A DNA stretch of 64,000 bases, from assembly GCF_021654855.1 (NCBI RefSeq), contig NZ_AP024202.1:1054001-1118000 (forward strand), written 5' to 3'. Positions within the stretch are counted from its first letter, which is position 1, and each line of letters begins with the position of its first letter. Position numbers and translations under genes: made by a program. This document shows, one piece after another, positions 5,101-63,068 of the stretch. This DNA is from Thiomicrorhabdus immobilis. Lineage in GTDB: Bacteria > Pseudomonadota > Gammaproteobacteria > Thiomicrospirales > Thiomicrospiraceae. Below the pieces are notes generated by a model. The model had not been told where the DNA came from and made no database searches. It worked only from the letters and a program-made list of their open reading frames with translations.

Positions 5101-5988
5101 TTAGTGTTTTCTATCCGCAATATAGTCAATTAAAGAGAATAGGAAAGGGCTGTTTATATCCAAAAGCCTCAGTTCCGCCTTGGCTTGAGTGATTAAATCA
5201 TCTCTATAGATTTTCGCTTCAGCCAATCCGAGCAATTTGGGATAGGTCGATTTATCGAGTTCCATATCACTCCCTTGCGGTTTTCCTAAGGTTTTGGTGT
5301 CGCCTTCGATATCTAAAATATCGTCCTGAACTTGAAACGCCAAACCGATCAGTTCACCTAAATTGGCCAGGCCTGGTTGAATTTGACGATAGTTTTCGGA
5401 AGTTACCGCACCCATTAACAGAGCGCATTGAATCAAAGCACCTGTTTTCAAGGAATGAAGGGTTTTTAATGCGGATAAGCTAATGGTTTTACCTTCGGAT
5501 TGGATGTCTAAAACTTGCCCGCCAATCATTCCTAAAGGGCCGCTGGCACGACTCAGCAAACGAATCATTTCAATAATTTGTGGTGGTTTTAAGGCATTAT
5601 CTTCGCTAAGGATTTGAAAGGCCAGGGTTTGCTGAGCATCTCCAGCTAAAATCGCCGTAGCTTCATCGAACTGAATGTGACAGGTTGGCTGGCCACGACG
5701 CAAATCATCGTTATCCATAGCCGGTAAGTCATCGTGCACTAGAGAGTAACTGTGAATCAATTCAATTGCACAAGCGGCACTGTCAACCTGGTCAAGAGGA
5801 ACAGCCAAGGCATCGGCTACCGCATAGATTAGCGCTGGTCTAAGACGTTTTCCTTGGTTTAAAGTAGCGTATTCTATCGCCGGGAATAAGTTGTTTGAGT
5901 AACCATTTTGTTGGTTAGAAAAATGTTGCAAATGGTGTTTGAGCGTTTGATTAACGCGTTCTTGGTAGTGTGATAATTGAGTTTGCAA
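5101..5988 (-). CDS. ispA: Farnesyl diphosphate synthase
   Basis: IspA condenses IPP with DMAPP/GPP to make FPP for quinones and undecaprenyl lipids. The first Asp-rich motif DDLPAMDNDD is at residues 86-95 and the second is in QVQDDILDIEGD. I place the start at a TTG (5988) because GGAG lies 8 bases upstream. The open frame runs 18 codons further, but those codons overlap a terminator-like hairpin. The result is 295 residues, the usual length. The usual xseB and dxs neighbours are absent. The palindrome CCAGGCCTGG at 5367 encodes PGL here. Confidence 0.92.
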   Translation of the reverse strand: MQTQLSHYQERVNQTLKHHLQHFSNQQNGYSNNLFPAIEYATLNQGKRLRPALIYAVADALAVPLDQVDSAACAIELIHSYSLVHDDLPAMDNDDLRRGQPTCHIQFDEATAILAGDAQQTLAFQILSEDNALKPPQIIEMIRLLSRASGPLGMIGGQVLDIQSEGKTISLSALKTLHSLKTGALIQCALLMGAVTSENYRQIQPGLANLGELIGLAFQVQDDILDIEGDTKTLGKPQGSDMELDKSTYPKLLGLAEAKIYRDDLITQAKAELRLLDINSPFLFSLIDYIADRKH

Positions 5989-6002
5989 GAAATTTTCTCC
6001 AT

Positions 6003-6033
6003 AAAAAAGGCCGTCTATTTGACGGCCTCTTTT
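6003..6033 (-). terminator. Hairpin plus T-run just before ispA
   Basis: On the minus strand, AGGCCGTC and its complement form an 8-bp GC-rich stem with a 5-base loop, followed directly by TTTTTT. It lies downstream of the peroxiredoxin gene and only about 15 bases before the ispA start. It may simply end peroxiredoxin transcription. If the ispA promoter lies upstream of it, it would act as an attenuator. Confidence 0.75.
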
Positions 6034-6177
6034 GGGTTGCAAGTTTGAGTTGAATTGTACTCAACGCGTGCAACGAGTGCTATAAATAATGCTTCTATTT
6101 TAACGATTAATTGCTTTCAAAGAAACCAAAGACAGTTAAAGTTGAATTAAAAATCCATTATTTAGTCACCGATGAGA

Positions 6178-6780
6178 TTAAAGTTCATCTGAGTGTTGGC
6201 TTAGGTATTCAGCAACACCGTCTGGAGTATCCTTCATACCCGCATCACCTTTGTTCCAACCTGCTGGACAAACTTCACCCACTTCTTCGTGGAACTGAAG
6301 CGCTTCAACCATACGAACCATCTCATCTACGTTACGACCAAGAGGAAGATCGTTAACGACCTGGTGACGAACAACACCATCAGTATCGATTAGGAATGCG
6401 CCACGAAGAGCAACGTTTCCAGGGTGAACGATGCCATAAGCTTCCATGATAGAACCACCTAGGTCAGCAACCAATGGGAACTTAACCGGGCCAAGACCAC
6501 CTTGGTTTACAGGTGTGTTACGCCATGCGTTGTGAGTGAATTGAGAATCAACTGAGATACCGATTACTTCAGTACCCAATTCTTTGAATCTTTCAACACG
6601 GTGGTCAAAAGCAAGGATTTCAGAAGGACATACAAATGTGAAATCTAACGGGTAGAAGAAAACAACTGCATATTTACCAGCGATGTGGCTTTTTAGGTTA
6701 AAGTCATCAACAATAGATCCATCTGCTAAAACCGCAGCTGAAGTAAAGTCTGGAGCCTGTTTTGTTACAAGAACTGACAT
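6178..6780 (-). CDS. 2-Cys peroxiredoxin (AhpC/TSA family)
   Basis: This thiol peroxidase reduces hydrogen and alkyl peroxides. The peroxidatic Cys51 is in FVCPSE and the resolving Cys171 is in EVCPAGW, so it is a typical 2-Cys enzyme of 200 residues. It is closer to the Prx1/thioredoxin-peroxidase type (GGLGPV, C-terminal tail) than to enteric AhpC. No ahpF is next to it, so electrons probably come from thioredoxin. An AAGGAT ribosome site precedes the ATG. It is probably monocistronic. Confidence 0.92.
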   Translation of the reverse strand: MSVLVTKQAPDFTSAAVLADGSIVDDFNLKSHIAGKYAVVFFYPLDFTFVCPSEILAFDHRVERFKELGTEVIGISVDSQFTHNAWRNTPVNQGGLGPVKFPLVADLGGSIMEAYGIVHPGNVALRGAFLIDTDGVVRHQVVNDLPLGRNVDEMVRMVEALQFHEEVGEVCPAGWNKGDAGMKDTPDGVAEYLSQHSDEL

Positions 6781-7050
6781 AGTATTATCCTTATATTTAG
6801 TGAGTAATTACGAGTAAATTAACTGAAATAGTATAGACAATTGATAGGGCTTATTCTAGTTAATTTGCTGAGAATTTCTCGATTCGTTTTACGGTTTGTG
6901 CTTGGTCATTTTTTATTTTCTTTAAGTTTGTCGGTCTTGTGGTCGATAAACTGTTTTAAGAAGTAAGGTTTATTGTTGAAGTGTAAAATATCTTTTGAAA
7001 AATAGGCAGCAACTATGTTGTCCTCCTAAATACGATTGAGCGTTAATGTT

Positions 7051-7680
7051 ATGTTTATAGTTTACAGTCCAGATGGTCGAAGTATGATTGGTGCGGTACA
7101 GCAGTTGCCAGCACTCAAAGTTGACCCTGCGCAACGTATCAACAAAATCGAAGAGGCCGAGTTGGGAGCTTTACAGGTGAATGTGAAATCCCAGCAGCAT
7201 GGCCGTAAAGAGAGCACTGCTTTAAACGCGTATAAAAAAAATCAAACTAAGGAATCCGGTCAAATTATTGTGAATGTCGCTGAAATCATGGTTTCACCGG
7301 TGTTTACGATTAATATCAATAGCTCTATCGAGGAAGCTTGGCAGCTTATGCAAGCAAAAAAAATTAAGCATTTACCGGTATTGGATAACGCCGAGTTGGT
7401 CGGTATGTGTTCACAAGAAGATTTGCTTGCCAGGATGATTGTCAGTAAGGAGGGTGAGTTAGAGGGCGTCAAGCAAGAGCGTGTGGCGGATGTGATGCAA
7501 TCTGGCGTGGTGACGACCACTATAGATACTGATATTAGGCATATCGCCCAAGCGTTAACCGGTTATCAAATAGATGTTTTGCTGATTATGAGTGAGTATC
7601 ATCAAATTTTGGGAATTGTGACGGAAAGCGATTTGATACGGCGGCTTGCGAAAGAGCCGCCAATAGAGATTTATACCTGA
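7051..7680 (+). CDS. CBS-domain protein
   Basis: The product has two CBS domains, at about 75-130 (VAEIMVSPVFTININSSIEEAW) and 140-195 (VADVMQSGVVTTTIDTDIRHIAQ). CBS pairs usually bind adenosyl nucleotides and act as sensors. The first 70 residues are variable and have no known domain. A TTG at 7036 would add five residues. I chose the ATG at 7051, although neither has a strong ribosome site. No linked enzyme or transporter is fused to it, so its partner is unknown. Confidence 0.75.
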   Translation: MFIVYSPDGRSMIGAVQQLPALKVDPAQRINKIEEAELGALQVNVKSQQHGRKESTALNAYKKNQTKESGQIIVNVAEIMVSPVFTININSSIEEAWQLMQAKKIKHLPVLDNAELVGMCSQEDLLARMIVSKEGELEGVKQERVADVMQSGVVTTTIDTDIRHIAQALTGYQIDVLLIMSEYHQILGIVTESDLIRRLAKEPPIEIYT

Positions 7681-7727
7681 GAAAGTTGGCGAACGAACTA
7701 AGTTAGCCTATTTCATTGTCTTCTAAA

Positions 7728-9654: not shown

Positions 9655-10128
9655 ATGGAAAATCAAATATCTAATCTTTTGCGAGAGCAGGGCGTAGTCA
9701 TTGGTATCGATGGTGATGAGGTTTTGGTTGAAACCCAAAGGTCAACAGGATGTTCTGGTTGTTCTTCTGAATCAGGGTGTGGAACATCGGCTTTAGCTAA
9801 GTTGTTTAGTACCACAAGTAAAGCGCCCATTAGAGTTAAAAACAACCTACACTGTGAAATTGGAGATAGCGTTGAACTCGTCTTGGATGAGTCACGATTG
9901 CTCCAACATTCATTTATGGCTTATGGTTTACCATTGATTGGACTTTTTGTCTTAGCGATAAGTTTTTCTAAAATTGCCTTACATGTATTTTCGTTATCAC
10001 CAGGCCTGGCAGAGTTGTCGGCGATTTTGGGTGGCGTTTTGGGGCTGTATTTAGGATGGTGGATAACTCGTAAACTGTATAAACCGGTTATGCCTGAGTT
10101 AAGTAAAGTCATCACAAAATCCCTTTAA
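9655..10128 (+). CDS. rseC: SoxR-reducing / sigma-E regulator RseC family
   Basis: RseC (MucC) is an inner-membrane protein linked to sigma-E control and, in enterics, to SoxR reduction. The 157-residue product has the N-terminal cysteine cluster GCSGCSSESGCG, which could hold an Fe-S centre. Two transmembrane helices follow at about 88-130 (FMAYGLPLIGLFVLAI, LSAILGGVLGLYLGWW). The frame is open 27 codons upstream, but the ATG at 9655 has TTAGGA before it and matches the family N-terminus. It is followed by mucD. The palindrome at 10000 encodes SPGLAE. Confidence 0.85.
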   Translation: MENQISNLLREQGVVIGIDGDEVLVETQRSTGCSGCSSESGCGTSALAKLFSTTSKAPIRVKNNLHCEIGDSVELVLDESRLLQHSFMAYGLPLIGLFVLAISFSKIALHVFSLSPGLAELSAILGGVLGLYLGWWITRKLYKPVMPELSKVITKSL

Positions 10129-15207: not shown

Positions 15208-15234
15208 AATCGATAGTGCTGGACAGAGTCAAAC

Positions 15235-15248
15235 TACCAGGCCTGGTA
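15235..15248. repeat. 14-bp copy of the repeated palindrome (rnc-era gap)
   Basis: A perfect TACCAGGCCTGGTA lies 27 bases after rnc and about 30 bases upstream of a TATAAT box of the likely era promoter. It is one of five copies that extend the core to 14 bp. Confidence 0.8.
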
Positions 15249-15275
15249 AGTTCTGTTTTTCAACTCTAAAAATAC

Positions 15276-16305: not shown

Positions 16306-17025
16306 ATGAACATAGAACAGTCTGCGTTTGTACTTCACTCTCGTCCTTATCGGGAGACTAGCGCCTTAGTGACTTTTTTTACTCCTGAGTACGGCAAAGT
16401 CAATGGCGTGGTTCGGGGAGTGCGTGGCGGACGAAAGACAGCTTCGCAAAAAACCGCCATGTTGCAGCCTTTTCAGCAGTTGACTTTGCAGTGGCGTGAA
16501 AAATCAAATTCACAAACCGATTTGCTGAGTATTCAGCAAATCGAACTTGCCAATTTGCGCTTTCCATTGCAAGCCGAAGCGAATATTTGCGGCCTGTATG
16601 TCAACGAATTGCTATACCGTCTACTTTTCCCTCAAGTCGCTACCGAAGCGTTATTCGATATTTATCAGCAAACCTTATATCAGCTGTTGGCGGCTCAGCA
16701 ACGCAGTGAACAGGCCTGGTCATTACGTCAATTTGAATTTCAACTGTTGTCGGAACTCGGGCATGGTCTGTTATGTGATCAAGATGTGCATCAGCAAACC
16801 ATATCCGCAGAAGCGACTTATCAATATTATCCGCAATATGGTGCGGTTCTGTCAGCCTGTGATTCACAGCAACAAGGTGTGTTAATCCAGGGTGAGTGTT
16901 TATTGGCATTGGATGAGATGCGTTATTGTGAACACTGTTTGCCACAACTCAAGCGTTTGTTCAGAGCCATCCTGGCGCTGTATTTGGGGGATAAGCCGAT
17001 AATGACACGTGAATTATTCAATTAA
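16306..17025 (+). CDS. recO: DNA repair protein RecO
   Basis: RecO acts with RecR in RecF-pathway recombination, loading RecA on gaps. The product (239 residues) starts with the OB-fold SAFVLHSRPYRETSALVTFFTPEYGKVNGVVRGVRGG, very typical. Conservation fades towards the C-terminus, as usual. The start is 17 bases after era. The palindrome at 16711 encodes QAW. Confidence 0.93.
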   Translation: MNIEQSAFVLHSRPYRETSALVTFFTPEYGKVNGVVRGVRGGRKTASQKTAMLQPFQQLTLQWREKSNSQTDLLSIQQIELANLRFPLQAEANICGLYVNELLYRLLFPQVATEALFDIYQQTLYQLLAAQQRSEQAWSLRQFEFQLLSELGHGLLCDQDVHQQTISAEATYQYYPQYGAVLSACDSQQQGVLIQGECLLALDEMRYCEHCLPQLKRLFRAILALYLGDKPIMTRELFN

Positions 17026-18318: not shown

Positions 18319-19023
18319 ATGAATAAGTCGTTAGTAACCAACTTGACTGCTGTTATCCTTTTGGTATTGGGTTATTTCTTGGAAAATACCTTTCTGTTAA
18401 TGGTTGGGTTATTTGCCTTATCGGGCGCTTTAACCAACTGGTTAGCCGTATATATGCTATTTGAAAAGGTACCAGGCCTGGTAGGTTCAGGTGTGATTCC
18501 CAATCGTTTTGTAGAGTTTAAAACGGCCATTAAAACCTTGATGATGGAACAGTTCTTCAATCAAGAGAATATTGATAAGTTTGTCGCCAATAGCGCACAA
18601 AATGCCAAGTTCGAGCTTAAGCCGGTAATTGAAAAAGTCGATTTATCGCCATCTTATGATCGTTTGGTTGAAGTGATCATGAACTCATCGTTTGGTTCGA
18701 TGTTAAGCATGTTTGGTGGTGCTGATGCCTTAACGCCGTTAAGAGAACCGTTTATAACCAATATGAAGAGTTCGTTGATTGAGATGACGCAAACGGATGC
18801 TTTTCATCAAATGTTACAGGATGAGTTGGACCAGCCTGATGTAATGGCAGATATTCAGGCCAAAGTCGCTGAAATCATCGATGCCCGGCTTGAGGAGTTA
18901 ACCCCGCAAATGGTTAAAGAGATGGTACAAAAAATGATTAAGGAACATCTTGGTTGGTTAGTCGTTTGGGGTGGTGTCTTTGGTGGATTGATCGGGTTGA
19001 TTTCCGCATTGATTATGAATTGA
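18319..19023 (+). CDS. DUF445 membrane protein
   Basis: The 234-residue product has an N-terminal double membrane segment (about 8-45, with GALTNWLAVYMLFEKVPGL typical of DUF445) and another hydrophobic segment at the C-terminus (WLVVWGGVFGGLIGLISALI). A helical soluble part lies between. Its function is unknown. It lies 21 bases after acpS and is probably the next operon member. The 14-bp palindrome TACCAGGCCTGGTA at 18470 encodes VPGLVG. Confidence 0.8.
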   Translation: MNKSLVTNLTAVILLVLGYFLENTFLLMVGLFALSGALTNWLAVYMLFEKVPGLVGSGVIPNRFVEFKTAIKTLMMEQFFNQENIDKFVANSAQNAKFELKPVIEKVDLSPSYDRLVEVIMNSSFGSMLSMFGGADALTPLREPFITNMKSSLIEMTQTDAFHQMLQDELDQPDVMADIQAKVAEIIDARLEELTPQMVKEMVQKMIKEHLGWLVVWGGVFGGLIGLISALIMN

Positions 19024-20007: not shown

Positions 20008-20062
20008 CTCAGTTCAATCAGGCTTACCTTGCAAATCATTTACCGGTAATTTTGAAAACGAG

Positions 20063-20072
20063 CAGGCCTGGT
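20063..20072. repeat. Palindrome copy, intergenic (SBF-NnrS gap)
   Basis: GCAGGCCTGGT lies between the SBF gene and NnrS. It has nine bases of the core decamer, with the recurrent G-for-C change on the left half. Confidence 0.7.
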
Positions 20073-20126
20073 GTTTAGGCATATTTATAATCGCTGTTTT
20101 CACCACTTCAATTTGAGCGTAAACCT

Positions 20127-21319: not shown

Positions 21320-21350
21320 CAACAACCCACCAGGCCTGGTTGGGTTGTTG
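21320..21350. terminator. Hairpin built around the repeated palindrome
   Basis: CAACAACCCA and TGGGTTGTTG flank the core CCAGGCCTGG with one extra T, giving a nearly perfect 31-base inverted repeat. It lies between the convergent ends of nnrS and the yeeE-like gene. No T-run follows on either strand, so termination would have to depend on the hairpin itself. Confidence 0.55.
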
Positions 21351-21403: not shown

Positions 21404-22543
21404 TCAAACTAGACGTTTGCGAATCATTAAGCCAAATATATTTCCTAACAGCGCAAACACCAACCATACCCAACCATGCAAACTACCCGAGGCGATTCCA
21501 CTAAAGAAAGCGCCGATATTGCAACCCGAAGCCATAACCGCACCATACCCCATTAAAACCCCACCAACCAAGCTACCTATCAAACCTTTATAGGTGATGG
21601 CGACTTTCGTTCTCGGCTTGAGTAAAGAGGCGGTGAAAGCTCCTAGAATCAACCCCATTGTGGTCAGGCTTACCGTGTTTTCAAAAAATCCTTGATTCAT
21701 GCGAGTGGTGTTTTCCATTGTGTAATCCCAAAAAGACCAGTCAAACGGTAGATTGAATAGGTCGATCAGATGGGTTCCCCAGTAAGGAAAGATGGAGCTA
21801 ATCGACCATGGCATTCCTGAAATAAACAGCAAACAAGCATTTAGAAACGCCAAGCTAACCGCTGCAATCAGGAAGGGATGGTTGATGCGTTTGCCATTCT
21901 CTTTACTGGATAGGCTGTGGTAGTCTTGATGGTGTTTGCGCTCGATGTTTTGCAGTAAGAAATACAGTCCCGCAAGTAAACTCAATTGAATGAACAGGCC
22001 TGGTAACCAACCAAACTCACGTTGAAAAGCGAACGGTTCAATAGACGGTAGGGTATTCCAGTCACTAAAGGTGTAGGCAGCAAAGGTTCCACCAATAACC
22101 ATAAAAAACAGGGTGGTAAAAGACATTGCTTGTAACTGGCCAACACGATTTAGTGTTCCAGAAGTACAACCGCAACCGATTTGCATTCCTATACCAAAAA
22201 TAAACGCACCCAATGGGATTGCCAGGCTTAAAGTACGGATAAATCCGTTAAAGCTTTGGCCATTGAAGTTTTGCATCGCTAATAGCGGTGCAAATAATAG
22301 AATGGCAATCGCCAATAACCAAATGATGGCACGCATGCCAGCGGTACGTTTTTCCAATAATAAAGAGCGAAAACTGCTACTGAATCCATACTGAAAATAA
22401 TTTAACGAAGCCCCTAAAAGCCCCCCAATAAGAATCAAGGTGATTGTATATAGCTGAGTGACTTGGGTGGCTTGATAGACAGCGTACAGCGCAAGCGGTA
22501 ACAGTAGCAATGCGGTTGTTAAAAAGGTTTGGGTTCTAATCAT
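21404..22543 (-). CDS. YeeE/YedE family (thiosulfate-type sulfur transporter)
   Basis: The family includes E. coli TsuA (YeeE), which takes up thiosulfate through a line of cysteines. The 379-residue product has about ten hydrophobic helices and two related halves, each with the conserved motif: GCGCTSGTLNRVG in one and ASGCNIGAFFSGIASGSLHGW in the other. The key cysteines are kept. Transport of a reduced sulfur compound fits the SQR-like gene nearby. A palindrome copy at 21996 encodes PGLF. Confidence 0.85.
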   Translation of the reverse strand: MIRTQTFLTTALLLLPLALYAVYQATQVTQLYTITLILIGGLLGASLNYFQYGFSSSFRSLLLEKRTAGMRAIIWLLAIAILLFAPLLAMQNFNGQSFNGFIRTLSLAIPLGAFIFGIGMQIGCGCTSGTLNRVGQLQAMSFTTLFFMVIGGTFAAYTFSDWNTLPSIEPFAFQREFGWLPGLFIQLSLLAGLYFLLQNIERKHHQDYHSLSSKENGKRINHPFLIAAVSLAFLNACLLFISGMPWSISSIFPYWGTHLIDLFNLPFDWSFWDYTMENTTRMNQGFFENTVSLTTMGLILGAFTASLLKPRTKVAITYKGLIGSLVGGVLMGYGAVMASGCNIGAFFSGIASGSLHGWVWLVFALLGNIFGLMIRKRLV

Positions 22544-23893: not shown

Positions 23894-23932
23894 GGTTTTT
23901 AATGCGTGTGTTTTTAACTGATCAGGCCTGGT

Positions 23933-23942
23933 GGGATTGTTT
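23933..23942. repeat. Palindrome copy, intergenic
   Basis: TCAGGCCTGGT lies just beyond the terminator, between the convergent propeller and HlyD-family genes. Nine bases of the decamer match. Confidence 0.7.
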
Positions 23943-32504: not shown

Positions 32505-32515
32505 AATAAAGTTAG

Positions 32516-41748: not shown

Positions 41749-44449
41749 GTTTATTCAATTTGTTATTGGCTTACTCTGTAGCGCTATTCTATGTTATCAG
41801 CTAACTAACTTTCTACCCTTATGGAGTGGTTGGTTACTGGTAGGCTTGATTATTGTGCCGCTTTTTTCCATGAAAATGGTTGAGAAAACCTTACCGTTAA
41901 AGGTTAACTTGCTGTTTTTAAACATAAAAGAACAAGCTGTTTCGCGTGTTGTTTATTCGATGCTGAATTTTCTTCTGGGAGCAATTATTGGGGTAAATAT
42001 CGTCTTTTGGCAGGCTTTTTTTGCACCTAAGATAGAGGGGTTTTGGTTTAACCAACATGTTATGTTGGATGTGAAGTTGATACAAATACCCCGTTTAAAT
42101 CAAACCAATCACTTTTATAAACTCTCTTTTGACGCTGAATTAAACACAATCACGCAGAGTGTTAATGCCACCTCGGTGTCTAATTCTAAGCACCAAACCT
42201 GGTTTTTCAATAAACCTAAAATCAAAATCACTTGGTATATGGATATTGATGAATTCAATACTCTCCAGCGTGTACCTAAGGTTGGCGAAACTTGGCGGTT
42301 TTATGCCAAGCTGAAAAGCAATCACGCCTCAATCAATCCTGGCACAAGAGATTATGAGGCTTGGTTATTTCAAAATCATATTGACGCCAAAGCCTCTGTT
42401 TCAGGAGTATTCATTAAGTCTAACAATCAAACAGTACCGATAAAGACGTCATTCACAGCGATTAATCTCAAAGAGCAAAATTGGAAGGATTATCGGGTCT
42501 GGCGAGAGCGGATCGCACTATATCTATCTCAACTTTATGACAAAAGCGATTATCAGGGCGTTTATAACGCTTTACTGATTGGTGATAAAGGACTGATAAA
42601 AGATGAATCTTGGAAGCTGTTTCAACAAACCGGAACCATCCATTTAATGGCGATATCCGGATTGCATATGGGGATTATGGCGTTAATAGGATTTTGGGTG
42701 TTTAAAGCGGTTTGGTGGTTAGGGGCATATCGACAAACGCGGGTTATATTGCCGACCTTCAGCGCATTGGGGGCGATACTGTTTGCCACGGCGTATCTGT
42801 TTGTTTCTGGCGGAGCTATTCCTACCCAAAGAGCGTGGATCATGGTTGTTACCATTTTAGGTTTTTTGTGGATTAAAAGAGAGTTTCGTCCCTGGTATGC
42901 ATTGGCCATGGCGGCATTTTTAGTCGTTCTATGGGATTCACGAGCACTATTGAGTAGCGGTTTTTGGTTGTCGTTTGTGGCGGTCGGGTTGATTTTCTTG
43001 AGTTTACCGCTCTATAAAGACAAACCTAAATGGAAACAATTAATCGCGATTCAACTGATGTTATCCGCAGGCTTAGCACCGCTGATTTTATGGAACTTTT
43101 ATGAAGTGCCTTTGTATGGTTTGTTAGCCAATTTAGTTGCGGTGCCTTTTGTATCAATCGTTGGCTTGCCATCGCTTATCTTGGGCGCCTTTATAGGCCT
43201 CTTTTCCCGTGATTTGTCCCAGGACTATTTCAGGCAGGTGGATTGGTTATGGTCACAGTTCTGGGGGTATTTGCAGTGGGTGGCAACCTTGCCCAGAGTC
43301 GAGTTGGTAACCATGCAGCACAGTTGGTTTTGGTTAATGATTGTGTTGCTGGTCTTTGCAGGCGTTTATCGCACTTTTATAAAGTTACAGTCACGTTATC
43401 GATTATCTTCTTGGTGGTTTACCGCGGTTTTAATGGTTTATTTTGTGGTCTTGATTTTTTATCCTTATAAACTCGATAGGCCAAATTCTGATAATCTTTC
43501 GTCTAATCTTGAAAAACGCAATAACCAGGCCTGGTTAACGGTGTTGGATGTGGGGCAAGGGCAGGCAATTGTGATTGAAACCGCTAAGCATGTGGTGGTT
43601 TATGATACCGGAGCCAAGTGGGGCGAAACTACCGATGCGGCCAAAGCCGTGTTGCTTCCTTATCTAAAATCGAAAGCTTGGCAAGCGGTTGATTTGTTGA
43701 TTGTGAGCCATAGCGATATCGACCATGCCGGTGGTACTCAGAGTGTTTTGGATAACATCCCGGTAAACCAACTTATCAGTGGACAAGCTTTTGAGGTGAA
43801 TAAGCTGATTGCTCAAAATCAGTCAGCCAAACAAATCAAAGACAGAATCTATCCCAAGTTTGTCGCTTGTGACAATCAGCAGGCCTGGTGGTTTGATGGC
43901 ATTCATTTCGAGATTTTGTCACCATATGGCATTCAACCTACAACGGAGCATGCCAAGCAAAATAAAACCCTGAACCATGTCGGTAATAGATTGAAGTCCG
44001 ATAACGACCTCTCTTGTGTGTTGAAGGTTTCCAATGGCATACAGAGTGTATTGATTACTGGGGACCTAAGTGCAAAAGGCGAGGGTGTCTTACTTGACAA
44101 TTATCGTGATAGACCAGAAAAAATCCAGGCCAATCTACTGGTTGCCGGCCATCATGGCAGTAAATATTCCAGTTCAACCGAGTTCTTGAACGCCGTTAAC
44201 CCCAATAAGGTGGTTTTTTCCTCAGGTTATCTCAACCGTTATCGGTTTCCGAATCAGGAGGTGATTCAACGATTCAATGATTTAAATATTCAAAATCGAG
44301 TAAATTGGTGGAACACGGCCTGTTCTGGAGCGCTCTCTTTTGAATTGCAGAAATATGGAATCGATTTACGTTATGAAGCTCGCAAAACCCTGCATAAATG
44401 GTATCATCACTCCTGTTTGAAATCTCAGCAAGGAACCTATTTTCAGTGA
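41732..44449 (+). CDS. comEC: DNA uptake channel ComEC/Rec2
   Basis: ComEC moves single-stranded DNA across the inner membrane during natural transformation. The 905 residues contain an N-terminal OB-like domain between membrane helices (about 100-260) and the Competence core (TIHLMAISGLHMGIMALIGF, GGAIPTQRAWIMV). A C-terminal beta-lactamase-like domain has LDVGQGQAIVIET, SHSDIDHAGG and VAGHHGS, with metal ligands intact. Starts at 41732 or 41747 are both possible. Palindrome copies at 43525 and 43880 encode QAW. lpxK overlaps its stop. Confidence 0.92.
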   Translation: MSFLGMFIQFVIGLLCSAILCYQLTNFLPLWSGWLLVGLIIVPLFSMKMVEKTLPLKVNLLFLNIKEQAVSRVVYSMLNFLLGAIIGVNIVFWQAFFAPKIEGFWFNQHVMLDVKLIQIPRLNQTNHFYKLSFDAELNTITQSVNATSVSNSKHQTWFFNKPKIKITWYMDIDEFNTLQRVPKVGETWRFYAKLKSNHASINPGTRDYEAWLFQNHIDAKASVSGVFIKSNNQTVPIKTSFTAINLKEQNWKDYRVWRERIALYLSQLYDKSDYQGVYNALLIGDKGLIKDESWKLFQQTGTIHLMAISGLHMGIMALIGFWVFKAVWWLGAYRQTRVILPTFSALGAILFATAYLFVSGGAIPTQRAWIMVVTILGFLWIKREFRPWYALAMAAFLVVLWDSRALLSSGFWLSFVAVGLIFLSLPLYKDKPKWKQLIAIQLMLSAGLAPLILWNFYEVPLYGLLANLVAVPFVSIVGLPSLILGAFIGLFSRDLSQDYFRQVDWLWSQFWGYLQWVATLPRVELVTMQHSWFWLMIVLLVFAGVYRTFIKLQSRYRLSSWWFTAVLMVYFVVLIFYPYKLDRPNSDNLSSNLEKRNNQAWLTVLDVGQGQAIVIETAKHVVVYDTGAKWGETTDAAKAVLLPYLKSKAWQAVDLLIVSHSDIDHAGGTQSVLDNIPVNQLISGQAFEVNKLIAQNQSAKQIKDRIYPKFVACDNQQAWWFDGIHFEILSPYGIQPTTEHAKQNKTLNHVGNRLKSDNDLSCVLKVSNGIQSVLITGDLSAKGEGVLLDNYRDRPEKIQANLLVAGHHGSKYSSSTEFLNAVNPNKVVFSSGYLNRYRFPNQEVIQRFNDLNIQNRVNWWNTACSGALSFELQKYGIDLRYEARKTLHKWYHHSCLKSQQGTYFQ

Positions 44450-48454: not shown

Positions 48455-49091
48455 GCTTTTGCGTCATGGCGAGTGTGATGACCAGGCCTGGTTAAGAGGC
48501 CGTGTGGATTCTGCTCTGGGTGAACAGGGGTGGCTACAAATGCATAACCAGTTAAAACTTTTGTATGTGACGGATAAATCGGAGTTGGATAAACCCAATA
48601 TGGTTAAAGCGGATGTAGTGATCTCTTCACCCGCTAAACGTTGTGCTGAATTTGCCCAAAAAATTTATGACCAGGCCTGCTCAGATAATCTTGTGGTTGC
48701 AGCCCCGTGGCAAGAGCGCGATTTTGGGGTGTTTGATGGCTTGCCGTTTGACAGGGTGCAGCAGAAATATCCACAAGAATTAGAACGGTATCTACAAAAC
48801 CCCTATAAAAATCCCATCCCTAAAGCAGAGAGTTTTGCTGACTTCAAAACCCGGATTCAGCAGGCCTGGTCAAATTTAATTCATTCAGATTATCAGTCCG
48901 TTTTATTGGTTACGCACAGCGGTCCGATGCGTTTGGTCTTGCAGCAGATTTTAGGATTTCCCGACCAACAACTGTTTCAGCTTGAACTGGGTTATGGCGC
49001 GCGAATTTCGATTGACGTGATTCCAACCGACACGCAGCCATTTTGTAAGCTTGTCGAAATCGTGCAATCAAAGACACAAGCAATAGGGTAA
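48444..49091 (+). CDS. cobC: Alpha-ribazole phosphatase (histidine phosphatase)
   Basis: CobC removes the phosphate from alpha-ribazole phosphate. The catalytic His is in ELLRHGECDD and the second in VTHSGPMRLV. The frame is open far upstream, but ATG 48444 starts directly at MRIELLRHGE, overlaps cobT by 11 bases and gives 215 residues. Three palindrome copies (cores at 48483, 48672 and 48861) are spaced exactly 189 bases apart within this gene and encode QAW, QAC and QAW. Confidence 0.9.
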   Translation: MRIELLRHGECDDQAWLRGRVDSALGEQGWLQMHNQLKLLYVTDKSELDKPNMVKADVVISSPAKRCAEFAQKIYDQACSDNLVVAAPWQERDFGVFDGLPFDRVQQKYPQELERYLQNPYKNPIPKAESFADFKTRIQQAWSNLIHSDYQSVLLVTHSGPMRLVLQQILGFPDQQLFQLELGYGARISIDVIPTDTQPFCKLVEIVQSKTQAIG

Positions 49092-49919: not shown

Positions 49920-50798
49920 TTATGGTTGTGTTTTGCGGACTTTATCGATTGTTTGGCACAAGCCTTCTATACTTTCAATCAAACGTTCGGTAGAGCGTTG
50001 AAATGTATCTGCATTTAACAGATAAATATGCTTGTTTTTCACCGCTTTCAAATTTGACCATTTTTGCCAATCTTTTAACCAGGCCTGCTGCACCGCTTTG
50101 AGTCCACCTAATAAAATGGTGTCAGGGTCCTTGGCAATCACACTTTCAATATTCACCTCTGCAGCCAATATCGGTAAATCCTCAAACACGTTGGTGGCAC
50201 CACAAATATTCAACGCCTGACTAATGAATTGTGAGCCGTTGATGGTCATTATCGGCGCATTCCAAATTTGGTAGAAAGCGCTGACCTTAGGTTTTGACTG
50301 GTAGGTCAATGCTAAACGTTCAAGTTGAATCTCTAAGCGCTTGGCCACTGAATCGGCTATCGTCTGGCTTTGTAGCTGTTCGCCAAAAAAACGGATCTCT
50401 TTAGGGATGTCAGCCAATTTATAAGGTTCGGAATAGATGACTTTAAACCCAAGTTGTTCAAGCTTTTCTATGTCTTTAATGCGGTTACCGCTACGCCAAG
50501 CGATAATTAAATCGGGGTTGAGTTGAATGATTTTTTCGATATTAAGCGCATGATAACTGCCGACGTTTTCGATTTTTAAGGCGGCGGCAGGGTAGTCAGA
50601 ATAACTGACCACTCCAACCACTTTATCGCCCGCACCGGCGGAAAACAGCATTTCGGTAATATGTGGGGCTAACGAGATAACACGCTGCGGAGCATTTTGC
50701 GCCTGACTTAATGAAGTATAAACAAGCAGGTATAAGCCACTCAGCAAGACAGCAAGGTGCTGCGTAAGCTTGGATCTAAATGGAAAATCAAACAACAT
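49920..50798 (-). CDS. BtuF-like cobalamin substrate-binding protein (copy 1)
   Basis: This periplasmic protein of the helical-backbone type has a signal segment ending LSQAQ. Core motifs are RVISLAPHITEMLFSAGAGDKVVGVVSYSDYPAAA, LNPDLIIAW and KNKHIYLLNADTFQRST. It probably binds cobalamin or cobinamide and hands it to an ABC importer. It is the last gene of the riboswitch operon and overlaps cbiB by 11 bases. No btuC or btuD is in the window. A palindrome copy at 50079 encodes QAW. Confidence 0.85.
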   Translation of the reverse strand: MLFDFPFRSKLTQHLAVLLSGLYLLVYTSLSQAQNAPQRVISLAPHITEMLFSAGAGDKVVGVVSYSDYPAAALKIENVGSYHALNIEKIIQLNPDLIIAWRSGNRIKDIEKLEQLGFKVIYSEPYKLADIPKEIRFFGEQLQSQTIADSVAKRLEIQLERLALTYQSKPKVSAFYQIWNAPIMTINGSQFISQALNICGATNVFEDLPILAAEVNIESVIAKDPDTILLGGLKAVQQAWLKDWQKWSNLKAVKNKHIYLLNADTFQRSTERLIESIEGLCQTIDKVRKTQP

Positions 50799-51717
50799 AA
50801 AATATCATCAGTAAACTGAACAATGTGAACACCACCACAGCATCGATTTTATTACGTAACTTTAAAGCGGTTTGTAAATGTTTGGCGGTAATTTGCTGGG
50901 GTTGTGATGGCTCTCCGAAATAGGCTTTGTGTTTCAGTTCTCCAAAATAATACGTATCGCCGCCCAATTGACATTGGCAATGTAACGCCATCGCACTGAT
51001 GGGATGGCCGGCATTGGGGCTATCGTGCTTTTTTCCATAAGGATAGAATTTCGATAAATGGCTTTTGGCACTTAAAATCATAATCAACAATGCGGTTATC
51101 CTTGCCGGAATCCAGTTTAACAGGTCATCCATTTTGGCGGAGGCCTTACCAAAATCTGCATAGCGAGCATTACGATAGCCCACCATCGAATCTAACGTAT
51201 TGACGGCCTTATAAACCACCAGGCCTGGTAAGCCGGCTAATAAAAACCAAAAAAGTGGGGCGATATAGCCATCACTCAAATTTTCAGCGTAGGTTTCAAT
51301 GCCAGCTTTGTAGCAATCACCATCGCTTAAGGATTGGGTATCTCGGCTGACCAACATCGCCACGGCCTGCCTTTTGTCGGGATTGTTAATCAATGCATTG
51401 ACGGAATCAAATAACATGCGATGTGCCAATAGCATGGAGGCGAACAATCCGGTGAACAGAATATTGAGCAGGCCTGGTAATTGAACAAAAAAGTAAACCA
51501 ACACACCGCTAAACCCTAAACAGAGCAGTAATAGACTCGCTAACAGCAGCACGCCACGTAATTGAGTGGCTTGGTAAAAATGGCGTTCAAAAAAGCTAAT
51601 CCAATCGCCCATCAAAATAACCGGGTGACGAATCCCTTTGAACTCGCCAAACAGACGGTCCACTAAAACAGCGAGCAACGCGCTGGTTAAAATCAATTCG
51701 AAATCAAATAGCAACAT
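50788..51717 (-). CDS. cbiB: Adenosylcobinamide-phosphate synthase CbiB
   Basis: CbiB attaches aminopropanol phosphate to adenosylcobyric acid. The 309-residue membrane protein has about five hydrophobic helices. The motifs are AVLVDRLFGEFKGIRHPVILMGDWI, ETYAENLSDGYIAPLFW, LDSMVGYRNARYADFGKASAKMDDLLNWIPAR and SPNAGHPISAMA. It overlaps the aminotransferase gene by 14 bases and the BtuF-like gene by 11. Two palindrome copies (51219, 51469) encode PGLV and PGLL. Confidence 0.94.
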   Translation of the reverse strand: MLLFDFELILTSALLAVLVDRLFGEFKGIRHPVILMGDWISFFERHFYQATQLRGVLLLASLLLLCLGFSGVLVYFFVQLPGLLNILFTGLFASMLLAHRMLFDSVNALINNPDKRQAVAMLVSRDTQSLSDGDCYKAGIETYAENLSDGYIAPLFWFLLAGLPGLVVYKAVNTLDSMVGYRNARYADFGKASAKMDDLLNWIPARITALLIMILSAKSHLSKFYPYGKKHDSPNAGHPISAMALHCQCQLGGDTYYFGELKHKAYFGEPSQPQQITAKHLQTALKLRNKIDAVVVFTLFSLLMIFYVV

Positions 51718-54316: not shown

Positions 54317-56519
54317 TGCTTTGTCCCCAATAATTAAGATAAGTAATTTCTTCTTTGGTTTGTGGGGTGCGCCAGTTTTCCTGCTCAAGCATGGGTTTGG
54401 CATAAAACTCCTCGACTTGTCCTAGGCATAAAATGGCAATCGGTTTGGCTTGGTTTTGAGGATTATCCGCCGTAGGAAACGCTAAACTTTGAGCCACTTT
54501 TTCAGGGTCAAATAGCGACACCCATCCCGTACCGATGCCTTCGGCACGGGCAGCTAAGGCTAGGTTTTGAATGGCACAACCGATGGATGCGATATCCATT
54601 TCCGGCAGGGTGCGGCGTCCGAAAACATGTTGTTCACGATTTTCACATAGCGCAACCACCAACACTTCGGCACAATCGAGAATACCTTCTACTTTTAGAC
54701 GCATAAACTCGTCTTCTCGCTCATTGAGGGCTCGGGCGGTGATAAGTCGTTCGGCCTCAACCAAATCGTGCAGTTGCTGGCGTAAAATCACATCGGTCAC
54801 TCGAATAAATCGCCACGGTTGCATCAAGCCAACGCTGGGTGCTTGATGGGCGGCTTGTAAAAAACGTTGCAACTGTTGCTCTGAGATTGGCGTTTTTAAA
54901 AAGTGGCGCATATCACGACGTTGGGAAATGGTTTGGTAGACCGCTTCAATCTGTTCCGATGAAAATGCCTGTGCCGAGTTTAAAGCGGAAGTTTTGGTTG
55001 TAAATGTCACAGGCGTTTGCAGAATGTTAAGAATCTGCTCAATATCCAAGTGGCTTTCAAAAGTGTCGGCTAAGCGTTCTATTTGTTGTTCACGATGTTG
55101 GTTTAAATCAAAGGTTTCACTTTCTAGCAGGCCTGCCCAATTTAGCAGAGTTTGTAGGCTCGTCGCTTCATCAAATAAACCGTGACAGTAAGTGGTGAAA
55201 ATTTGTTGGTCCTCACTGATTAAGCCATCTAGCTCACCATTGTCATATTTAATGGCGTAAAGTGAGTTTTGGGTGTCGCCGAAATCGGTAACACCTTGGT
55301 GGATTTCATAACCGGTGACAGAGGCGTGTTTGACCAGGCCTGGTGGATTTGTATTTTTGCGGCTCAAACAAACTGAATTCAAAGTCCCTTGACGATTGAT
55401 CAACTGTTTTTCGGACTGGTAAGTTGTGTTATAAGGCATCAATCCTAAGCCAGCAGTTTGTGCAATATCCGATTCAATCGCCTGTGGGTCAAACAGGTTT
55501 TGTCCTAGCATTTGCAAACCACCACAAATCCCTATTAGCTTGCCGCCATAGCGTAGATGTTTTTGTAGATAAGCTGACCACGCCTGGTCTTTTAACCAAC
55601 TTAAATCACTGATGACGCTTTTGGAGCCAGGTAAAATCACCAAATCGGCTTGCGGAATGGCTTGGCCATCTTGAATCCATTCAAAGTCTACTTGCGGGTG
55701 CAGCATCAGTGGATCTAAATCGGTATGGTTGGATATATGCGGTAATAACGGAGCGATGACTTTTAGGCGTTGTTGGCGGTTGTCATTTTTATCAGATAGC
55801 TGAACGCTAATGGCATCTTCGGCATCCAAATGCAAATCATGTAGATAAGGCAATACCCCTAAAACCGGTTTGCCCGTTTTGCTTTCAAGCCAATCCAAAC
55901 CATCTTGGAGTAGGGCGATATCGCCTCTAAAACGGTTGATGACAAAGCCTTTAATTCGATTTCTTTCAGATTCTGACAGACAGTCTAAAGTGCCGACAAT
56001 ATGCGCAAACACGCCTCCTTTATCAATGTCGGCAATTAATATGACTGGGCAGTTTACTTCTTCGGCAAAGCCCATATTGGCGATGTCGCCTTTACGTAAA
56101 TTCACTTCGGCAGGGCTACCAGCGCCTTCAACTAAAATGGTTTGGTACTGTTTGCTCAGAATTTGAAAAGAACCGAAAACCGCTTGTGCGGCTTTCGGTT
56201 TATATTCGTGGTAATCCAGTGCGTCTAAATTGCCAATGGAGTGACCTTGCAAAATCACCTGTGCCCCAGTATCGCTATTGGGTTTTAGTAATACTGGATT
56301 CATGTGTACTGACAAAGGCACTTTAGCGGCCATGGCTTGCAAAGCTTGTGCTCGACCAATTTCACCGCCATCCGGTGTAACCGCCGAATTCAAAGCCATA
56401 TTTTGCGGTTTAAACGGCGCAACTGAAAAGTTACGCCGTGCCAAAACTCGGCACAATCCCGCCACCAAAGTGCTTTTACCCGCATCGGAGGTGCATCCTT
56501 GGATCATTAGAGTGTGCAT
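54306..56519 (-). CDS. cobQ: Cobyric acid synthase CobQ fused to BluB (dimethylbenzimidazole synthase)
   Basis: Residues 1-495 are a full CobQ, which amidates adenosylcobyrinic acid diamide. They have an N-terminal P-loop-like [17 protein letters not shown] and a glutaminase domain with Cys332 ([10 protein letters not shown]) and His446 (TYCHGLFDE). Residues 524-737 are a BluB-type nitroreductase, which cleaves reduced FMN to 5,6-dimethylbenzimidazole: RRDMRHF at 534-540, [16 protein letters not shown] at 556-571, and the C-terminal GIGTGWVS. A linker of about 25 residues joins them. There is no stop or frameshift between, so this looks like a true fusion. Confidence 0.9.
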
Positions 56520-58385: not shown

Positions 58386-58450
58386 GATTTTCCTTCAATT
58401 CATAAATGTAAATGAACGAAGGCAAACGGACAGGGTGGTCATGGTATTAA

Positions 58451-58460
58451 CCAGGCCTGC
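58451..58460. repeat. Palindrome copy in the btuB leader
   Basis: AACCAGGCCTGCT lies between the riboswitch and the btuB start, about 65 bases before the ATG. Nine bases of the decamer match. It could alter folding of the leader RNA. Confidence 0.65.
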
Positions 58461-58574
58461 TTAGATAAATTACTTGGCACAAAAGCAACCGTGTTTAAGT
58501 TTGCTTTTAATTTGTGAATTTGGCTTATCTCCGTATTGCCCACCGCAATCGGGTTGAATGTGTCATAAACAGCA

Positions 58575-58913: not shown

Positions 58914-58939
58914 TAAAGTTACCAGGCCTGGTAACTTTA
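58914..58939. repeat. 26-bp perfect palindrome containing the repeat core
   Basis: Arms TAAAGTTACCAGG and its exact complement meet with no loop. The centre is the 14-bp TACCAGGCCTGGTA. It lies between the riboswitch promoter region and the end of the DUF3581 gene. No T-run follows on either strand, so it is not a classical terminator. Confidence 0.85.
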
Positions 58940-62018: not shown

Positions 62019-62106
62019 GTGAATAAACGCCTAGATTAATGAAATTGGTTACAAAAGACACTCTAAATTAAAAGCTTGAAGTTTAATGTAAGCGTTATAG
62101 GCAGGT

Positions 62107-62385
62107 TTAATTTCGGTAAATGGTCTCAATTAAGTGATAGCCAAACTTGGTTTTGATTGGACCGTGTACCGTGAGGACTGGTAATTTGAAGACCACGTTG
62201 TCAAACGCTTTCACCATGGTTCCTGGGCGGAATTCGCCTAAGTTACCGCCTTTCTTTTTAGACGGACAGATCGAGTGTTTCTTGGCTAAGGTACCAAAAT
62301 CAGCACCTTTGGCAAGTTGTTGTTTGAGTTTTTCGGCTTCTTCTGGGGTTTTGACCAAAATATGTCGTGCACAGGCTAAGGCCAT
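62107..62385 (-). CDS. ppiC: Peptidyl-prolyl cis-trans isomerase, parvulin type
   Basis: This single-domain parvulin of 92 residues has [55 protein letters not shown] and TKFGYHLI, all conserved. It has no signal peptide, so it is cytoplasmic like E. coli PpiC. Confidence 0.93.
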
Positions 62386-62474
62386 TGTTTGTCTCCGGGA
62401 TCAATGATTCACAGGGTAGCCCTGATGGCTGAATTTGGATAAAAAGATTGTTTTGTAAATAAAATTAAAGCATT

Positions 62475-62807
62475 TTATCGATTGAAAATCTGCCACCATT
62501 TTTTACCGGTTTCTTCAACTTCGCGACCGTTTTCGATTTGTTTCTCAATCTCGGATTGTTTCGACTCACTTCGTTTATCGTCATCATCCTGTTTGTTTTT
62601 CTGCTTGTCTTTCAGTTTGTCTTTTTGATACTTTTTATCATCATAGTCGTGATTTTCGTTGTTATGTTTGTTTTTCATCTCATAACTATGTTGCTGTTTT
62701 TGTTCTACGCTCGGTTTGCCTTTGTTTCCTGCCCACTCAGGTTTATCTGCTAACGCAGGCAATGCGCAACAAAGCGTTAAACAAAATACACTTATTTTAG
62801 TTTTCAT
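62475..62807 (-). CDS. Small secreted highly charged protein
   Basis: The frame is open to 62855, but ATG 62807 has TAGGAG before it and starts a clean signal peptide (KISVFCLTLCCALPALA). The mature 90 residues start DKPEWAGNKGKPS and are then almost all Lys, Asp, Glu, Gln and His (DDDDKRSESKQSE). This is probably a disordered periplasmic protein. Similar 'KPEWAGxxGK' proteins exist without a known function. Confidence 0.7.
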   Translation of the reverse strand: MKTKISVFCLTLCCALPALADKPEWAGNKGKPSVEQKQQHSYEMKNKHNNENHDYDDKKYQKDKLKDKQKNKQDDDDKRSESKQSEIEKQIENGREVEETGKKWWQIFNR

Positions 62808-63031
62808 GGCCGTTCTCCTATGAGAGGGTTTCATTTTAGATTTCAAAATCAGCAATCAACATTGTGGTTGGCGCGTAATTAGATGAACTTTCTATTTAAC
62901 ACATATTTTTTGAATGAATCAAAAAAATCAGCGAATTTATTTTAACCAAGCCTGGTTGAATCACTTCTAAGCAATTGAAAAGAATGCTTCGGATATGCGT
63001 TATATTTAAAAATAGCGGTAATCAAAAATGC

Positions 63032-63037
63032 TATAAT
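63032..63037 (+). promoter_or_regulatory. Possible -10 box for glnS
   Basis: TATAAT lies 78 bases before the glnS ATG. No good -35 sequence is seen. It would put the palindrome at 63055 in the untranslated leader. Confidence 0.3.
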
Positions 63038-63054
63038 TTGCGCTATTTATTTCT

Positions 63055-63068
63055 TACCAGGCCTGGTA
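63055..63068. repeat. 14-bp copy of the palindrome upstream of glnS
   Basis: A perfect TACCAGGCCTGGTA lies 47 bases before the glnS start. A decayed copy, AACCAAGCCTGGTT, occurs about 110 bases earlier, near 62944. Confidence 0.8.

Follow-up and report, generated by a model that had tools for sequence, protein, structure and literature searches.

Why should a single short palindrome recur time and again in one stretch of bacterial DNA? In the window (the whole stretch of 64,000 nucleotides that was analysed) the octamer CAGGCCTG occurs 26 times (Table 1), against a mean of 0.55 and a largest count of 3 in 100 dinucleotide shuffles. The first-pass annotation of the window had reported the same 26 copies, and we recovered its 12 full decamers at exactly the starts that it gave, as well as its 12 further octamers that carry nine of the ten decamer bases and in 8 of which the changed base is indeed G, on one or the other strand. 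The nine-base sites are real, but their octamer and decamer starts had been mixed, with positions off by at most 2, and the copy placed at 23933 begins at 23922 (decamer) or 23923 (octamer). The copy at 58915..58938 adjoins a cobalamin riboswitch.

Table 1. Copies of the motif and the comEC gene in the window (positions count from the first letter of the window).
Feature	Position	Strand	Context or evidence
Motif copy, full decamer	5360..5383	.	inside FPP-synthase-like ORF 5101-6042
Motif copy, full decamer	9993..10016	.	inside ORF 9574-10128
Motif copy, full decamer	15230..15253	.	intergenic, codirectional ORFs
Motif copy, 9/10	16703..16726	.	inside ORF 16306-17025
Motif copy, full decamer	18465..18488	.	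inside ORF 18319-19023
Motif copy, 9/10	20055..20078	.	intergenic, codirectional ORFs
Motif copy, full decamer	21323..21346	.	intergenic, convergent ORFs
Motif copy, 9/10	21987..22010	.	inside ORF 21404-22543
Motif copy, 9/10	23915..23938	.	intergenic, convergent ORFs
Motif copy, 9/10	28557..28580	.	intergenic
Motif copy, full decamer	30234..30257	.	inside ORF 30199-30852
Motif copy, octamer only	32508..32531	.	intergenic
Motif copy, 9/10	35957..35980	.	inside ammonium-transporter-like ORF 35160-36377
Motif copy, full decamer	43518..43541	.	inside comEC
Motif copy, 9/10	43872..43895	.	inside comEC
Motif copy, full decamer	48475..48498	.	inside ORF 48348-49091
Motif copy, 9/10	48664..48687	.	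inside ORF 48348-49091
Motif copy, 9/10	48853..48876	.	inside ORF 48348-49091
Motif copy, 9/10	50072..50095	.	inside ORF 49920-50798
Motif copy, full decamer	51212..51235	.	inside ORF 50788-51717
Motif copy, 9/10	51461..51484	.	inside ORF 50788-51717
Motif copy, octamer only	55120..55143	.	inside ORF 54306-56519 (CobQ-BluB-like)
Motif copy, full decamer	55327..55350	.	inside ORF 54306-56519 (CobQ-BluB-like)
Motif copy, 9/10	58444..58467	.	between ORFs 56583-58385 and 59031-59738
Motif copy, full decamer, perfect 24-bp palindrome AAAGTTACCAGGCCTGGTAACTTT	58915..58938	.	between ORFs 56583-58385 and 59031-59738
Motif copy, full decamer	63050..63073	.	outside all listed ORFs >=100 aa
comEC/rec2, DNA internalisation channel gene	41732..44449	+	TIGR00361 3.3e-96, 322.9 bits, cut-off 190.05

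The enrichment is not a local matter. The genome holding the window (G000, 2.54 Mb; other genomes are likewise given by number) contains 812 copies of CAGGCCTG and 7 of the reversed control, or about one copy per 3.1 kb, which favours a role in uptake. Within 524 kb of it we counted 153 copies, where Markov models of orders 3, 4 and 5, fitted after masking of the motif, predict 4.7, 6.0 and 7.2; expectations from maximal-order models were discarded because such models absorb the motif. The annotation had named genome counts near a Markov expectation, or an enrichment limited to the window, as outcomes that would speak against it, and neither occurred. The word is short, strongly enriched and genome-wide, as are the uptake sequences of the Neisseriaceae (DUS) and Pasteurellaceae (USS), and it is an over-represented palindromic octamer, as are the cyanobacterial HIPs. 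We tentatively take the palindrome for a self-DNA mark, i.e. a putative signal of the DNA-uptake type that is kept by biased uptake and recombination, and give this reading somewhat less than an even chance. The sparsest 20-kb samples of the genome, which include its own pilus clusters (L269 with 1 copy, L268 with 2), speak against it.

The core of the motif had been recognised correctly, but its length had been set too short, as the flanks are informative up to some 12 bp away from the dyad. The full motif approximates AAWnYnACCAGGCCTGGTnRnWTT, in which the octamer is strict, the arms are looser, deviations concentrate at the outer positions and A-tracts lie 10-12 bp from the dyad. This layout, in which A-tracts flank a GC-rich core and sit roughly one helical turn away from the dyad, supports an uptake signal: the USS (AAGTGCGGT, ACAAGCGGT) is likewise dispersed in hundreds of copies or more, and has a GC-rich core, AT-tracts at helical spacing, clade-wise dialects and a common inner core (PMC12616744, in the part consulted). 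Unlike the present motif, the USS is non-palindromic with AT-tracts on one side; here only the G020 dialect is one-sided. A further difference, which may count against uptake, is that octamers with one mismatch show no excess (130 found, 121.8 expected), while for 9- and 10-mer uptake sequences an excerpt of PMC1939737 gives 3- and 5.8-fold one-mismatch counts. Among copies with intact AC/GT arms, 5 with a core mismatch were found where 0.96 were expected (about 5-fold), beside 71 perfect ones.

The main rival explanation draws on this same architecture. The word could be bound by an abundant chromosome protein that acts as a dimer (a nucleoid organiser or similar), and be selected genome-wide and lost or changed whenever the protein is lost or changed; we judge this unlikely on balance, though a serious candidate. 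A two-fold symmetric site of 24 bp with a strict centre and helically placed A-tracts is consistent with such a protein, as are the scarcity of near-miss copies and the random-like spread of the gaps between sites (CV 0.90, first 100 sites). No candidate protein was identified.

The placement of the copies bears on both readings, and also on a third, in which the word would have no function and be a passive by-product of codon usage or of biased mutation or repair. Copies are 5.4 times denser between ORFs than within them in G000, and the corresponding ratios in samples of other dialects are 7.7 (G023), 14.8 (G020) and 11.7 (G005, G017, G025). Among intergenic regions the density is highest or joint highest between convergent ORFs and lowest between divergent ones, which favours uptake and argues against a chromosome protein. 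Of 84 coding copies only 3 use the frame that would read AGG-CCT, a rarity in favour of uptake, and 81 fall in two frames (read as QAW, and as PGL or AGL); this restriction to frames that follow codon tolerance speaks against a chromosome protein and is what a passive bias might produce. A genome of another genus, G035, has copies that lack A-tracts and are nearly all coding (46 of the 48 sampled), which also suits a passive bias and counts against uptake. We nevertheless regard a passive origin as very improbable, given the excess over Markov expectation, the higher density between ORFs, the gain and loss of this particular word among related species, and the exact conservation of its copies: of 43 alignments of window octamers to G015, G009, G021 and G030, 28 show no change, compared with 13-14% for ordinary 8-mers. 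Such conservation in close relatives is a point for uptake and would also suit a chromosome protein. Octamers of G025 aligned to G017 are identical in 6 of 12 cases versus 10% for ordinary 8-mers, in favour of uptake; fewer window sites are kept in distant motif-rich genomes (2 of 5 in G008, 1 of 3 in G017 and 0 of 1 in G025), which weighs against it.

Among 32 genomes of the genus 15 are motif-rich and 17 motif-poor, and the motif is present in several genera of the family. Relatives carry arm variants (octamers flanked by AC, AG or A(A/G)), a point for uptake, and some motif-poor genomes carry a different word altogether. G023 has a replacement palindrome, ACCGGCCGGT, in 1,025 copies, and in the G020 samples the replacement is the one-sided, non-palindromic AAACTCAACAGGCCGGGT, at 0.2 per kb compared with 0.3 per kb for the octamer in G000. 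The abundance of this one-sided form indicates that two-fold symmetry is not essential, and it argues against a dimeric chromosome protein, as do the at least seven changes of motif state on a LepA tree, which would be unusual for an essential organiser. In G012, G016, G028 and G029, words made of a G-tract and an AT-tract are perhaps the replacement. The inner GGCC is constant in the octamer and in the G023 and G020 forms, and is absent from the G-tract lead. Variants within the family thus share a common inner core, as in DUS and USS; the DUS, whose receptor is ComP, varies in family dialects around a constant CTG where GGCC is constant here, and is described as continuous, non-palindromic and up to about 13 nt long; no ComP-like receptor was identified here. 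A candidate word in G003, AACAGCGGGT, was set aside, as it is partly one local tandem repeat and its remaining copies are scattered without shared flanks.

No sites could be aligned between G000 and G023. Of about five distinct ancestral sites aligned to G020, two now carry CAGGCCGG, a third is unchanged, a fourth differs at two positions and the last is gapped, which is suggestive only of dialect switching in place. The comEC gene of G020 is split by a 36.7-kb insert that has no copy of AACAGGCCGGGT, although a rate of 39 in 260 kb would predict about 5.5, and 2 copies of CAGGCCGGGT, against about 7 expected; this favours uptake.

Signals of the Chi and KOPS type are strand-oriented. They resemble the present word in being short, frequent and genome-wide, but the main form here is palindromic, and replication-strand skew was not seen in G000, where one-sided AC-arm copies number 20 versus 16 by the sign of the GC skew. 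The motif shows no clear strand bias, a point for uptake, and the asymmetric form of G020 occurs 34 times on the plus and 28 times on the minus strand.

A GGCC core is also known from phosphorothioation (Dnd), a further candidate modification. Could the word be made by modification, as a HIP in the sense of Elhai, with a solitary DNA methyltransferase acting on GGCC, AGGCCT or CCWGG and methyl-directed repair making and keeping the palindrome? The likeness to HIP1 and the alternate HIPs of cyanobacteria is considerable: an enriched palindromic octamer, deviations at the outer positions, and a different palindrome in a sister genome (G023). The density in G000, however, is 320 per Mb, compared with 500-2500 per Mb for cyanobacterial HIPs, and according to the same source (PMC4390886) cyanobacterial HIP genomes carry one or more putative methyltransferases that match, although some HIP1-rich genomes are also without a CGATCG methylase. 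We searched for PF00145, PF01555 and PF02086 (PF02384, PF07669 and other families lay outside the search): none of the three matched at E 0.001 in G000 or G023, all three went undetected in 7 of the 18 motif-rich genomes of the family, G000 included, and over 58 genomes they provided no consistent partner. These absences make a methylase-driven HIP unlikely, and since information reaches beyond what a methylase needs and the G020 form is non-palindromic, we hold it to be improbable. Of the three roles proposed by the annotation (uptake, nucleoid binding and methylation), uptake stands as the best, if putative, and methylation is disfavoured.

An uptake signal needs machinery, and here the evidence is divided. 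The annotation's comEC was borne out by a TIGR00361 match above the cut-off. In a search that covered 24 genomes of the genus (G024-G036 lying outside it), 11 of the 12 motif-rich genomes have a full-length ComEC and the twelfth, G006, has a fragmentary one, which favours uptake. Nine motif-poor genomes (G003, G011, G012, G013, G014, G016, G019, G022 and G023) carry it as a single open frame; it was undetected in the fragmented G004, and in G001 its pieces are spread over two contigs; the split comEC of the motif-poor G020, whose dialect is still abundant, counts against uptake. Loss of ComEC as the cause of motif loss was rejected, as most motif-poor genomes searched keep it. A ComEA-like match was obtained in 32 of the 37 family genomes and passes the cut-off in 20, with that of G000 just under it (1.2e-13, 52.4 bits, cut-off 53.1). 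G000 thus has ComEC together with a ComEA-like protein, as DUS and USS systems do; the pair is also present in the motif-poor G003, G013, G014 and G019 and therefore cannot explain the presence or absence of the motif. PilQ (TIGR02515) did not exceed its cut-off in any of the 37 genomes of the family, against 18 of 21 other genomes of the class in which it did; this differs from USS systems, speaks against uptake and suits a chromosome protein. The family shows other secretins only. Those examined in G000 belong to MSHA-like, Tad-like and T2SS-adjacent clusters, and an MSHA-like secretin is present together with a pilus ATPase. GspH-type minor pilins were rejected as the receptor, being undetected in 34 of the 37 family genomes with weak matches in G011, G019 and G026 only. 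Natural transformation in this group is not named among the literature matches listed, another point against uptake.

If the word does act as an uptake signal, a receptor at the cell surface would prefer DNA that carries it, ComEA and ComEC would bring such DNA in, and recombination would exchange weaker resident copies for perfect ones, so that copies would accumulate where genes and promoters tolerate the word. More doubtful than uptake as such is the fuller picture of a previously undescribed system, palindromic in origin, rewritten several times in one genus (as the G023 palindrome, as the one-sided G020 word through an altered half-site, and perhaps as the G-tract and AT-tract words) and working through a pilus of the MSHA type rather than the usual PilQ machinery.

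Uptake sequences have been described in two bacterial families, as far as the sources consulted extend, and they raise the question of how a receptor could shift dialect in step with hundreds of copies in the genome. Within this one genus the common word and its arm variants occur beside a new palindrome and an asymmetric word, and the word has been lost several times; since the genus has cultured members (PMC10608990, in excerpt) the dialect switch is open to comparative and experimental study. If the word were instead the site of a chromosome protein, it would be equally surprising for about 800 sites to be lost and rewritten repeatedly. In this marine, sulfur-oxidising host the word looks like a putative self-recognition mark for DNA uptake, rewritten as species split.

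The palindromic octamer CAGGCCTG occurs 26 times in the window, compared with a mean of 0.55 and a maximum of 3 in 100 dinucleotide shuffles; the first-pass annotation, which had reported this repetition, was correct apart from small slips in the coordinates. Twelve of these copies represent the decamer CCAGGCCTGG and 12 more are one base off it. The Thiomicrorhabdus immobilis genome (one contig, 2,539,444 bases) holds 812 octamers against 7 copies of the same letters reversed, and a 524-kb sample of it contains 153, where Markov models of orders 3, 4 and 5, trained with motif copies masked, predict 4.7, 6.0 and 7.2, respectively. The sites are spaced nearly at random (gaps between the first 100: mean 3,136, CV 0.90). 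No description of the motif was found in the open-access literature among the matches listed for uptake words, frequent palindromes and transformation in the genus. Judged by title, none of the papers listed for the octamer itself dealt with genomic words of bacteria; AGGCCT did not appear in those listed for the genus names, nor is it in the main text of the paper on highly iterated palindromes (HIPs; PMC4390886).

We aligned 141 copies from 464 kb of the genome and used the 153 copies from 524 kb as a second set. In the 141 copies the two positions outward of the octamer are C (0.78) and then A (0.83), followed farther out by T or C at -4 and an A-rich stretch at -6 to -8, all mirrored on the other side; the full motif is roughly AAWnYnACCAGGCCTGGTnRnWTT, and one window copy is a perfect 24-bp palindrome (see table). 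Both sides carry the AC arm in 75 of the 153 copies, a single side does so in 55, and 23 copies lack it altogether; the corresponding figures for the A-tract are 50, 62 and 41, the sides being near-independent in both cases. One-mismatch octamers are not in excess in the 464 kb (130 versus 121.8 expected). Core-mismatch forms inside intact AC and GT arms number 5 (0.96 expected) beside 71 perfect copies, and arm mismatches are far commoner. Near-miss copies of the uptake words DUS and USS stand at 3- and 5.8-fold, and the figure for HIP1 is ~11-fold (PMC1939737); the octamer's near-misses are scarce by comparison with DUS and USS, which would count against a role in uptake.

Placement was counted on longest-ORF calls. 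Inter-ORF DNA makes up 10.6% of the T. immobilis sample, yet it holds 60 of the 153 copies, with densities per kb of 1.71 in convergent, 1.15 in codirectional and 0.51 in divergent gaps (6 copies), and ~0.2 within ORFs. The coding copies in 464 kb fall in two frames in 81 of 84 cases, the AGG-CCT frame holding 3. There was no clear strand bias, neither for the one-armed copies of T. immobilis (20 versus 16) nor for the asymmetric form of its relative G020 (34 versus 28). Three 20-kb samples are motif-sparse: one copy at a Tad-like cluster (L269), two at an MSHA-like cluster (L268), and two in L092, which is mostly one ORF of 5,282 codons in which no copy is listed. Unlike the samples of the genus, those of G035 from another genus (L140, L275-L277) have 46 of 48 octamers in coding sequence and lack the A-tracts. 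We also observed a cobalamin riboswitch (RF00174, 97.7 bits) between two motif copies of the window, upstream of two ORFs, one of them CobQ-BluB-like.

Coordinates of the features discussed
Feature	Sequence	Position	Strand
Perfect 24-bp palindrome	window	58915-58938	
Cobalamin riboswitch	window	58569-58810	minus
ORF downstream of riboswitch	window	56583-58385	
CobQ-BluB-like ORF	window	54306-56519	
ORF of 5,282 codons (L092)	G000:C1	130221-146069	
MSHA-like cluster sample (L268)	G000:C1	1903001-1923000	
Tad-like cluster sample (L269)	G000:C1	1945001-1965000	
Locus adjoining T2SS genes (L270)	G000:C1	2365337-2375564	
Apparent comEC insert	G020:C1	51351-88066	
MethyltransfD12 gene	G020:C1	87209-87769	
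Sample with local CGTTAACG (L134)	G015:C1	400001-420000	

The best named match of the window's LepA is Thiomicrorhabdus sp. NP51 (88%), followed by MAGs of Hydrogenovibrio sp. (83%) and Sulfurivirga caldicuralii (82%), all of which we take to be marine sulfur oxidisers, in agreement with published abstracts. Among 32 genomes of the genus, including T. immobilis, 15 are motif-rich, exceeding ~100 copies per Mb with 236-1,173 octamers per genome, and 17 are poor (3-74 octamers each), some of the latter lying a few-fold above the reversed control (G003 32 versus 8, G020 74 versus 20, G028 24 versus 0). The five genomes from other genera of the family comprise three rich (409, 840, 668) and two poor ones (7, 10), and the top counts (control in brackets) in 21 genomes from other families of the class were 222 (91), 114 (27), 109 (86), 108 (15) and 108 (41). 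The states rich, poor and G023-type require at least seven changes on a LepA tree built from first and second codon positions, with 35 of the family's 37 genomes plus two outgroups; the tree represents one gene and has several unresolved forks.

Window octamers were identical in 7 of 12, 7 of 12, 6 of 9 and 8 of 10 alignments to G015, G009, G021 and G030, respectively (~76% overall identity; the four sets have sites in common and are not independent), versus 13-14% of ordinary 8-mers. They were kept in 2 of 5, 1 of 3 and 0 of 1 cases in the distant motif-rich genomes G008, G017 and G025, and in 1 of 3 in motif-poor G003; G025 octamers were kept in 6 of 12 alignments to G017 (background 10%).

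Several relatives use a dialect of the word. The arms, compared on 20-48 copies per genome outside T. immobilis (2-3 in G033 and G027), are AC in T. immobilis, G009, G015, G018, G021, G030 and G036, AG in G008, A followed by A or G in G005, G017 and G025, and AC or AG in G035. The octamer-poor G023 (12 copies) carries ACCGGCCGGT 1,025 times (reversed control 1), and its flanks retain T eight positions and A 10-12 positions from the dyad; among the 58 genomes, no other has more than 20 copies. In 260 kb of samples, rather than genome-wide, the octamer of motif-poor G020 is at background (8 versus 7.9 expected), while CAGGCCGGG occurs 58 times (2.7 expected) and AACAGGCCGGGT 39 times (0.05 expected), and the consensus aAAACTCAACAGGCCGGGT has arm and A-tract on one side only. 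Its sister G004 has one CAGGCCGGG in 16.9 kb, and two of about five distinct G017/G025 octamer sites aligned to G020 read CAGGCCGG, the new half-site. A chromosome-binding dimer that reads the word, the main rival to an uptake signal, would account for its symmetry, strictness and conservation, but leaves the asymmetric dialect and the frequent loss unexplained, and we consider it possible but less likely than uptake.

Runs of at least seven G number 81 in 172 kb of G012 (L144, L307), G016 (L145, L302, L303), G028 (L147, L304, L305) and G029 (L150, L306) versus 4 in 400 kb of T. immobilis, often within A-G(7-12)-A(G/A)AAAATTT. In G016 and G029 they are long and numerous; those of G012 and G028 mostly have seven G. 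Dispersed through this sister clade, which lacks the palindrome, stretches of 7-12 G precede AGAAAATTTT-like sequence, with about one per 1.5 kb in G016. The assemblies are fragmented, and the runs, a lead only, may represent a further dialect or arise from assembly. A clear replacement word was not found in 120 kb of G003, 65 kb of G024, 75 kb of G014 and G031, or 28-40 kb of G011, G013 and G026; a local repeat prevented a verdict on G019, and sampling of G001, G022, G032 and G034 was very thin. In G019 (L114-L116), words of 8 to 10 bases, GCAGCTAAGA and CGCCAAGGCA among them, reach ~96-103 copies in 40-60 kb and look like a coding tandem repeat. Another palindrome, CGTTAACG, occurs six times (non-overlapping) within ~5 kb of 33% GC in one G015 sample and once in the other three, an enrichment that looks local.

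Methylases of the families PF00145, PF01555 and PF02086 were undetected in T. immobilis and G023, and none of the three was detected in 7 of the 18 motif-rich family genomes (T. immobilis, G010 with an assembly 86% complete, G017, G021, G025, G027 and G033). Four features set the word apart from a methylase HIP: none of these three main families was detected, the motif carries information as far as 12 bp from the dyad, its A-tracts lie at helical distance, and one relative has an asymmetric form.

The window's ComEC scores 322.9 bits. The search for it covered 24 genus genomes (G000-G023): 11 of the 12 motif-rich ones have it at full length and 9 of the 12 motif-poor ones in one open frame, and it is fragmentary in G006 and G001 and undetected in the fragmented assembly of G004. 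In G020 comEC lies in two pieces on one strand, separated by 36.7 kb of apparent insert (L273, L274, L206) with a MethyltransfD12 gene near its edge and no convincing direct repeat at its edges; the insert contains 0 AACAGGCCGGGT and 2 CAGGCCGGGT, versus ~5.5 and ~7 predicted from the sample average. Of the 37 family genomes, 32 have a ComEA-like match, motif-rich and motif-poor ones alike, and in 20 the match exceeds the cut-off (that of T. immobilis scores 52.4 against a cut-off of 53.1). PilQ exceeds its cut-off in 0 of 37 versus 18 of 21 others. T. immobilis instead encodes T2SS genes, a Tad-like cluster and an MSHA-like cluster (MshEN-T2SSE ATPase, T2SSF, secretin, TPR and AAA proteins), putative names that reflect our reading of the domains. 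Adjoining the T2SS genes, L270 encodes a secretin, an AAA-PG-binding protein, a TPR protein and three N-methyl motif proteins, one match being just under the cut-off.

That the octamer serves as an uptake signal is our leading but tentative reading, quite possible if short of probable. Against it, PilQ is below cut-off, the presence of the uptake genes does not follow that of the motif, no receptor was found, and G035 departs in placement and flanks. The layout of core plus AT-tract in the T. immobilis word resembles that of the USS (PMC12616744), and the dialects of the family's words behave like those of DUS and USS. The simplest reading of the distribution would be that the motif is old in the family and was lost repeatedly. 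Placement by tolerance, scarcity in the G020 insert and the lack of clear strand bias would be expected of a word that biased uptake and recombination have spread.
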